A DNA stretch of 64,000 bases from Gemmatimonadota bacterium (GTDB lineage Bacteria; Gemmatimonadota; Gemmatimonadetes; Gemmatimonadales; GWC2-71-9): assembly GCA_003220935.1 (NCBI GenBank), contig QHTT01000066.1, positions 26,990 to 90,989 on the forward strand, in the 5' to 3' direction. The notes beneath the pieces were generated by a model that was not told where the DNA came from, ran no database searches, and saw nothing but the letters and a program-made list of their open reading frames with translations. Numbering within the stretch: position 1 is the first letter of the stretch; every line of letters starts with the position of its first letter. Below, one piece after another: positions 14,747 to 51,915 of this stretch. Position numbers and translations under genes: made by a program.

Positions 14747-16333
14747 TCACTCCGGCTCGAGCAGCAGCTCCTCGAGATCGAGGTCGCGCTGCACGCGCCG
14801 CATGACGGCGTCGCTGATCGCTCCCTCGTCACGCAAGCGGAGCAGCTCCCGCCGCTCCACGGTCAAGAGCTCCTGCACGAGACGCCGGTCGGCCGCGGAG
14901 ATGGTCTCTTCACCGCCGTCCGCGACGCCATCCGACTGGCCGCGGAACCGACGCGTGCGGTGGCGATAGCGGTCGCGCGTATGGGCCAGCGTCTCCGGGT
15001 GCATCCACTGCGCGACGGCCAGCTGCTCGAGTCGCGCGAGCGCCGCCTCAGAAGCCTGGAGCCGGGCCGCGGTCTCCTCGCGGCGCTCGTCTTCGCCCGT
15101 CTCGTGCACGCCGAGCCACCGCGCTAGCGGCGCGAGCGCGAATCCCTGCCCCATCAGGGTTACGAGGATCACCGCGAACGTGAGGGCGATGATTGCATCG
15201 CGGCCGGGAAAGGGAGCGCCGGCGACGGTCGCCGTAGGGATGGCGGCCGCGAGCACGAGCGACTCCGCACCCCGCAAGCCGGCCCACGACACGATCGCCG
15301 GCAGCTGCCACCGCGGGGAGGGATCGCGCGCCCGCACGCGCCGGCTCAAGAAGCGCGGCAGGTAGGTCGCCGGGTACACCCACACGAAACGGGCCGCGAT
15401 GACCGCCAAGCTCACCAGGCCGGCTCCCCGCGCCAGCTCGAAGGCGCTTGCCTCGCTCAAGCTGCCCAGGATCGGCCGCAGGGCGAGGCCAGTCAGGATG
15501 AAAATCAGCCCCTCCATGATGAACACCACCACTGCCCATACGCCGGTGTTCTGCACGCGCGTATCGGCCGCCACGAACCGCGGGCCCACTCGCCCCAGGT
15601 ACAGCCCCGTGGCCACCACTGCCAGGATCCCTGAGACCCCGAGGTGTTCGGCCGGCAGGTACGCCGCGTACCCGGTCAGGAGCGAGATCGTGTTCTCCAC
15701 TTCGGGATCGTGGATGCGGCGCCGGACGAGCCCGAGCAGCCACGCGACGGCGAGACCGACCGCGATCCCGCCCGCGCCCACCAGGAGAAACCGCCCACTT
15801 GCCTGCGTGAACGAGAACGAGCCCGTGACCGCGGCCGCAACCGCCATGCGGTATGCCACGATCGCGGCGGCGTCGTTGATCATGCTTTCGCCCTCGAGGA
15901 TGGTGACGAGGCGCCGCGGCAGCGGCAGGCGGCGCAGGAACGCGGTCGCGGCGGCCACGTCCGGAGGCGAGACGACGGCGCCGAGCGCAAACGCCGAGGC
16001 CCACGGCAAGCCGGGAACGGCGAGGTGCGCGACCCAGGCGACCGCGACTGTCGCGAACAAGACGTGACCGACGCCGAGCAGGAGGATGGGGCGAAGGTTC
16101 GCACGCACATCGCGGTACGACGCCAAGAGCGACGCGCGATACAAGAGCGGCGGGATGAAGACCAGAAAGACGAGCTGGGGGTCGAACTGAACCGCTGGCA
16201 GGCCCGGGAGCAAGGCGACGAGCAGCCCGCCGGCGACGAACAGCGCCGGCGTGGGAACGGCCAGCCGGCGCGCCAGCAGCGCCAGGAAGGCCACGCCGAC
16301 GAGGAGCGCGAGGACGGTCTCGAAATGGTGCAT
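14747..16333 (-). CDS. Na+/H+ antiporter, CPA1 family
   Basis: MHHFETVLALLVGVAFLALLARRLAVPTPALFVAGG...GAVVSPPDVAAATAF...LEGESMINDAAAIVAY. Confidence 0.88.
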   Translation of the reverse strand: MHHFETVLALLVGVAFLALLARRLAVPTPALFVAGGLLVALLPGLPAVQFDPQLVFLVFIPPLLYRASLLASYRDVRANLRPILLLGVGHVLFATVAVAWVAHLAVPGLPWASAFALGAVVSPPDVAAATAFLRRLPLPRRLVTILEGESMINDAAAIVAYRMAVAAAVTGSFSFTQASGRFLLVGAGGIAVGLAVAWLLGLVRRRIHDPEVENTISLLTGYAAYLPAEHLGVSGILAVVATGLYLGRVGPRFVAADTRVQNTGVWAVVVFIMEGLIFILTGLALRPILGSLSEASAFELARGAGLVSLAVIAARFVWVYPATYLPRFLSRRVRARDPSPRWQLPAIVSWAGLRGAESLVLAAAIPTATVAGAPFPGRDAIIALTFAVILVTLMGQGFALAPLARWLGVHETGEDERREETAARLQASEAALARLEQLAVAQWMHPETLAHTRDRYRHRTRRFRGQSDGVADGGEETISAADRRLVQELLTVERRELLRLRDEGAISDAVMRRVQRDLDLEELLLEPE

Positions 16334-50498: not shown

Positions 50499-51566
50499 TC
50501 AATCTCCCAGGCTGATCCCCAGGTCGCGCGCCGTCGCGATGGTATCGGAGTCGAGCGGGACGACCTTCGGCATGGCGAGCGCCTCGGCGATGGGGATGGG
50601 GGCGATGGCGGGGGGTCGTAGCGCCACCATCGTTCCGAACTTCCCCTCTGCGATCACGCGCACGGCCGCCGCACCGAACCGCAGGCCCAACAGGCGGTCG
50701 AACGTCGTGGGGCTGCCACCACGCTGGAGGTGCCCCAGCACGAGCGTGCGCGTCTCCTTGCCCGTCATTTCCTGGATCGAGTTGGCGACCTTGTCGCCGA
50801 TTCCGCCGAGGCGCTCGTGCTCGGGATCGATCAGCGACACGGTGCCGCCCTTCGGTGCCGCTCCCTCCGCAACCACGACGATGCTGAAGTGCCGGCCCTC
50901 GCGTTCGCGTCGCTGGATTTTTTCGCACACCTTCCTGATATCGAAGGGGATCTCGGGGATCAGGATCACGTCGGCAGAACCGGAGATCCCGGAGTGGAGG
51001 GCGATCCACCCGGCGTGGCGCCCCATCACCTCCACGACCATGACGCGTTCGTGACTCTCGGCCGTGGAGTGGAGCTTGTCGATCGCGTCGGTGGCGGTCT
51101 GGACCGCGGTATCGAAGCCGAACGTAGAGACGGTGCCACCGACGTCGTTGTCGATCGTCTTGGGCACGCCGACCACCGGGATCCCTTTCTCGAACAACCG
51201 GTGCGCGATGCGCAACGAGCCGTCTCCGCCAATCGCGATGAGGGCGTCGATGCCTTTGGTCCGGAACGCGGCGATAAGCTCGTCGGTACGGTCCCGCTCG
51301 ATCCAACTGCCGTCGGGGAGCCGCTCTCGCCACCGGAACGGATCGCCGCGGGTGGTCGACCCAAGGATGGTGCCGCCGAGGTGCGTGATGCCGCGGACCG
51401 CGTTGACATCGAGCGTCACGACGCGGTCCTCGTCCAGCAGTCCGTCATAGCCGCGCCGGATACCGACGCACTCCCAGCCGCGGTGGATCGCAGCGAGCAC
51501 GGCGCCGCGGATCACGGCGTTCAGCCCCGGGGCGTCGCCGCCGCCGGTGGAGATCGCGATTCTCAA
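50499..51566 (-). CDS. pfkA: ATP-dependent 6-phosphofructokinase (TTG start)
   Basis: RIAISTGGGDAPGLNAVIRGAV, IAIGGDGSLRIAHRLFEKGIPVVGVPKTIDND, GFDTAVQTATDAIDKLHSTAESH. Confidence 0.92.
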   Translation of the reverse strand: MRIAISTGGGDAPGLNAVIRGAVLAAIHRGWECVGIRRGYDGLLDEDRVVTLDVNAVRGITHLGGTILGSTTRGDPFRWRERLPDGSWIERDRTDELIAAFRTKGIDALIAIGGDGSLRIAHRLFEKGIPVVGVPKTIDNDVGGTVSTFGFDTAVQTATDAIDKLHSTAESHERVMVVEVMGRHAGWIALHSGISGSADVILIPEIPFDIRKVCEKIQRREREGRHFSIVVVAEGAAPKGGTVSLIDPEHERLGGIGDKVANSIQEMTGKETRTLVLGHLQRGGSPTTFDRLLGLRFGAAAVRVIAEGKFGTMVALRPPAIAPIPIAEALAMPKVVPLDSDTIATARDLGISLGD

Positions 51567-51802
51567 CGCGCCGGCGGCGCCGTCTGCTGAATCAGGCGCA
51601 GCACTTCCCCGGGTTCAGCGTGCCGCCCGAGGGCCTTTTTGGAGAACAGGCGACGCCCGTCGACCTCGACTTCGAACACGCCGCCCGAGGACTGGATCAG
51701 CTTGACGTCCGCGTGCGGGTGGGCCTTGCGGATTTCGGCCGCCAGACCGGCGGCCCGAGGCTCGTAGTTTCAGACGACACAGTACTCGATGGTGACGCGC
51801 AT
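51563..51802 (-). CDS. SelW/Rdx-type selenoprotein with in-frame UGA (CxxU); not in the ORF track
   Basis: read on minus strand with TGA (51772-51770) as Sec: MRVTIEYCVVUNYEPRAAGLAAEIRKAHPHADVKLIQSSGGVFEVEVDGRRLFSKKALGRHAEPGEVLRLIQQTAPPAR*; stop overlaps the pfkA TTG start. Confidence 0.85.
51737..51755 (-). promoter_or_regulatory. Candidate bacterial SECIS stem-loop 3' of the Sec UGA
   Basis: minus strand GGCCGCC-GGTCT-GGCGGCC: perfect 7-bp stem, 5-nt loop, GGUCUG at nt 22-27 after the UGA. Confidence 0.7.
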
Positions 51803-51915
51803 ACGGGGTGTGGGAGAGCTGGCTGGGTTGCGTGTAAGGATAGTCGCGCTTGACACGCCACGCCACAGTCCCGAGTTTGCGCGGCATCCACCCCTGAGGA
51901 TTCAGACCGGCCGGC

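Follow-up and report, generated by a model that had tools for sequence, protein, structure and literature searches.

The 64,000-nucleotide stretch of Gemmatimonadota DNA analyzed here (the window) carries on its minus strand a short gene, selW, followed directly by pfkA. selW spans positions 51802–51563, from an ATG at 51802–51800 to a TGA stop at 51565–51563, and encodes 79 amino acids if the in-frame UGA at codon 11 (51770–51772) is read as selenocysteine (Sec); 68 further codons follow this UGA before the stop. The original prediction had given this frame exactly, both in its coordinates and in its sequence. On the same strand, a hairpin with the stem GGCCGCC/GGCGGCC and the loop GGUCU lies at 51737–51755, and a conserved element, TGTCAAGCGCGACTAT, is found upstream of selW at 51840–51855. 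pfkA (50499–51566, minus strand) matches profiles of ATP-dependent 6-phosphofructokinase (PFK_mixed), and its TTG start at 51566 overlaps the selW stop in the tetranucleotide TTGA (51566–51563), as had been proposed. The window's list of standard open reading frames of at least 60 aa has no entry in the selW frame; in this sense the gene was indeed missed, although the SelW family itself is well known.

The identity of the read-through product as a CxxU protein of the SelW/Rdx type, also part of the original prediction, was borne out by Pfam, NCBIfam, PDB sequence matches and the predicted fold. The product scored 72.8 bits against Pfam Rdx PF10262 (cut-off 22.6; 2.7e-20; residues 2–72) and 100.7 bits against NCBIfam NF041051 SelT/SelW/SelH (cut-off 88; 4e-29), and it also matched TIGR02174 above cut-off (5e-16). 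Both SelW models were matched by all 37 aligned homologues, in which the C and U columns of the CVVU motif (residues 8–11) are invariant. An AlphaFold2 model built from the window and related sequences (pLDDT 87.2) places this motif after the first strand (residues 2–8) and predicts a small thioredoxin-like protein; its best PDB match is the SelW-related structure 2fa8 (TM 0.89, 36% identity), and its TM score against mouse SelW (2npb) is 0.68. In the solved bacterial SelW-related homologues a Cys aligns to the selW UGA. These structures (2fa8, 2obk, 3dex, 2oka and 2p0g) share fold and length with the window SelW but carry CxxC, in those shown, where the window protein has CxxU; with Cys in place of Sec, a SECIS element is unneeded. 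With CVVU as its redox centre, SelW is most likely a thiol/selenol oxidoreductase, its redox activity being putative.

The UGA itself is strongly conserved. A scan of species genomes returned 79 selW loci, and at the 71 that were inspected, drawn from many phyla, a TGA occupies the Sec position every time; the translation of locus L088, for instance, has U there as in the other inspected loci. Among 41 genomes of the same order we found 33 Rdx matches, each with exactly one in-frame TGA, and none of these 33 was a Cys variant of selW. Conservation of Cys or Sec at position 11, the proposed check on the gene, is thus seen as UGA in all Sec-containing relatives and Cys in the solved homologues. 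Furthermore, dN/dS 3′ of the UGA was 0.107 across 20 close relatives. A pseudogene or a sequencing error at the UGA was excluded, since the codon is kept in relatives and dN/dS is this low. The contigs that match most closely are from Gemmatimonadota MAGs.

The hairpin downstream of the UGA fits the published description of bacterial SECIS elements, which calls for a 3–9 nt loop, an upper stem of 4–16 bp, a G among the first two bases of the loop, a UGA-to-loop distance of 16–37 nt and an MFE of at most −7.5 kcal/mol (PMC13188914). The selW hairpin has a 5-nt loop opening with GG, a perfect 7-bp stem, a UGA-to-loop distance of 21 nt and an energy, in isolation, of −14.9 kcal/mol. Its stem had been predicted base for base, with a start 14 to 15 nt past the UGA; we found 14. 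The energy itself was rejected as evidence for a SECIS: the local fold energy is ordinary for this GC-rich context (z = 0.17), and a bSECIS-like stem of equal length follows 61 of the 1154 TGAs in the window, so that stem length is not distinctive. An Rfam scan of the window gave no match above threshold and no SECIS family call.

Support for the hairpin comes instead from covariation. In an alignment of 67 sequences from many phyla, pairing in the stem was kept at 84.9%, compared with 76.9 ± 0.8% in shuffles and 19–60% in slid controls, and 40 doubly changed cells were counted where shuffles gave 12.5 ± 2.7. Because the stem is coding, we also applied a codon-preserving null, in which codons were permuted within a column among sequences sharing the amino acid. 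This null reached 81.1 ± 0.6% pairing and 28.4 ± 1.9 doubly changed cells, and neither observed value was equalled in 1000 permutations; both nulls control only in part for relatedness among the sequences. The second loop base is G in all 67 sequences, and 13 of the 67 have at least one mismatch within the inner five pairs. Compensated stems are exemplified by loci L082 (ACC/GGT) and L087 (TATC/GATA). The claim of a SECIS-like hairpin thus holds both by the bacterial SECIS model and by covariation across phyla, and the compensatory changes give strong phylogenetic support to the hairpin as a candidate SECIS. As judged from these alignments, the UGA, the protein sequence flanking it on either side and the hairpin pairing are all retained beyond chance.

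A further check proposed at the outset was the presence of Sec genes, and it was borne out for selA, selD and tRNA-Sec. Among the refuting conditions named in the prediction, a lack of selB is the only one that applies, and it does so in part: selB was not found in the assembly but is present in three of four congeners. The genome is an 85% complete MAG in 154 contigs. It contains selA (contig C14, 544 bits), selD (contig C129, 403 bits) and a tRNA-Sec with the anticodon UCA (contig C128, 78.9 bits). For selB, this assembly gave neither a match above cut-off nor a match to the C-terminal winged-helix domain; matches below the cut-off were discarded, the best two because their length and genomic position are those of EF-Tu genes. 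In relatives selB was found above cut-off in 31 of 41 genomes, including the congeners G001, G002 and G004. Of a congener's selB region, only the outer parts match the window's own genome. One of these matches falls at the very start of contig C34 (base 275), which suggests that selB may lie in an assembly gap. Across the 41 genomes, all 33 that bear SelW have selB and/or tRNA-Sec, and the genomes lacking both (G031, G033 and G035; 98–99% complete) have no SelW (one-sided Fisher P-value 0.005).

Other genes of this genome also have in-frame TGA codons. One lies near the N-terminus of selD itself (AGUAC; L103:2258–2260, contig C129), which leads us to predict that the selenophosphate synthetase is a selenoprotein as well. 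Two additional candidates belong to the peroxiredoxin family and have a TGA at the active site, in the motifs TPGU and TKGU (L153:1118 on contig C136, TGA near 16117, and L154:924 on contig C15); we take these motifs to be the known TxxU motif of peroxiredoxins.

From this evidence we conclude, with a probability of roughly 96%, that the locus is a functional SelW/Rdx selenoprotein gene heading a selW-pfkA operon, with the hairpin acting as SECIS and Sec inserted at the UGA. We infer that insertion at codon 11 would proceed as follows. A ribosome would reach the UGA at codon 11, and the hairpin 14 nt beyond it would be bound as a SECIS by SelB, presumably encoded in the unassembled part of the genome. 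SelB would then bring Sec-tRNA-Sec, made by SelA, SelD and tRNA-Sec, and Sec would be inserted in place of termination. Translation of selW may in turn be coupled to that of pfkA.

Two other explanations of the UGA were weighed. If selW were a decaying Cys-type gene in which TGT or TGC had become TGA, it would end as a 10-residue stub; TGC to TGA is a single base change, and the assembly does lack selB. However, the UGA is shared by every relative inspected across many phyla, the sequence 3′ of it is under purifying selection and its SECIS covaries, and the genome has tRNA-Sec, selA and selD. Decay is thus refuted on comparative grounds and we hold it to be extremely improbable. Decoding of the UGA as an amino acid other than Sec, for instance through a suppressor or code reassignment, would also account for a frame that is open on either side of it. 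Nevertheless, UGA keeps its ordinary role as a stop codon here, including at the end of selW, the genome encodes selA, selD and a tRNA-Sec whose anticodon is UCA, and the codon falls exactly at the catalytic CxxU site where homologues have Cys. Such a reading of UGA, likewise rejected by comparison, has next to no probability in our judgment.

The relationship of selW to pfkA bears on a further alternative. PfkA has the motifs GGDGS and PKTIDND, which we take to place Gly at E. coli position 104 and Lys at 124, and which suggest that the enzyme uses ATP and belongs to the mixed group. Within Gemmatimonadota, pfkA lies directly 3′ of selW in 38 distinct loci. The two genes overlap in 18 of these (13 by NTGA, 5 by longer stretches), are separated by 2–7 nt in 9 and stand farther apart (> 7 nt) in 11; SD-like motifs accompany 4 of the 18 overlapping pfkA starts. 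Outside Gemmatimonadota the sequences flanking selW yielded no pfkA, and in seven close Gemmatimonadota relatives none was found within 2.5–3 kb downstream of selW. At one locus (L026:3001–4166, QHUC01000110.1) selW is seemingly fused in frame to a pfkA without the N-terminal GGGD part, by either deletion or misassembly. The upstream element TGTCAAGCGCGACTAT, which has a single exact match in the window and is present in most close relatives, is the probable promoter of selW-pfkA; a scan for a sigma-70 promoter or terminator found none. In several relatives the element ends ~9 nt before the selW ATG, a spacing that suggests leaderless selW mRNAs in those relatives, and ~30 extra nt are present in the window's genus.

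In this arrangement selW could be mainly a leader that gates ribosomes to pfkA according to selenium supply, with the SelW protein secondary. The pairing is kept in Gemmatimonadota and was seen in no other phylum, close to half of the pairs have overlapping stop and start codons, with an SD-like motif before pfkA in only a few of these, and early stops in the first gene of overlapping pairs are reported to abolish downstream translation in H. volcanii and to cut it strongly in three of five E. coli pairs (PMC6728339). On the other hand, strong purifying selection acts on the whole length of SelW, and in other phyla SelW occurs with the same SECIS but without a nearby pfkA, which shows that the protein is selected in its own right; in addition, the pfkA start lies more than 7 nt downstream in 11 of the 38 pairs, and the genome has a second PFK gene. 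We therefore consider a mainly regulatory selW highly unlikely. A more limited effect on pfkA can be envisaged for the functional selenoprotein gene that we favor. Since missed Sec insertion would amount to an early stop, and such stops can block translation of the second gene, selenium-dependent PfkA synthesis is a reasonable inference; that the overlap makes PfkA synthesis in Gemmatimonadota depend on Sec insertion is nonetheless a tentative proposal, to which we give a rather low probability. The second phosphofructokinase gene, which is more divergent (contig C118:176–1132, 163 bits to PF00365), likely limits the cellular effect that such a dependence would have.

It has been previously reported that bacteria possess SelW-like selenoproteins with CxxU, an Rdx domain and a SECIS 3′ of the UGA, as in the window SelW, and the window gene differs from the surveyed ones in its Gemmatimonadota host and its pfkA partner (PMC1088965; PMC2398784, survey passages on bacterial selenoproteins, which make no mention of Gemmatimonadota). 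In Campylobacter jejuni, full-length translation of SelW (CJnc60) past the UGA was demonstrated by Ribo-seq and MS (PMC11955535). That protein resembles the window SelW in its size (~80 aa), its NF041051 type and its omission from annotation; it is described as encoded by an ORF on the CJnc60 transcript, formerly regarded as an sRNA (PMC11955535), whereas the window selW leads a pfkA operon. SelW-like bacterial selenoproteins, and the frequency with which annotation misses them, are therefore already known. What is new, on the genomes compared, is the Gemmatimonadota-specific selW-pfkA pair with its overlap in 18 of 38 loci. In a literature search that left most subscription journals outside its reach, we found no study of Gemmatimonadota selenoproteins and no link of any selenoprotein to pfkA.

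These findings point to a conserved selenoproteome in soil Gemmatimonadota, comprising SelW, SelD and two candidates of the peroxiredoxin type. They add selW as an example of a gene lost by standard calling, and provide a set of SelW SECIS elements, drawn from many phyla, in which compensatory changes occur. The conserved overlap also makes selenium-dependent translation of a glycolytic enzyme directly testable in this phylum. If such a dependence is real, ribosomes would halt at codon 11 when selenium, Sec-tRNA or SelB is low and would miss the pfkA start, and glycolytic flux would be tied to the selenium or redox state of the cell.
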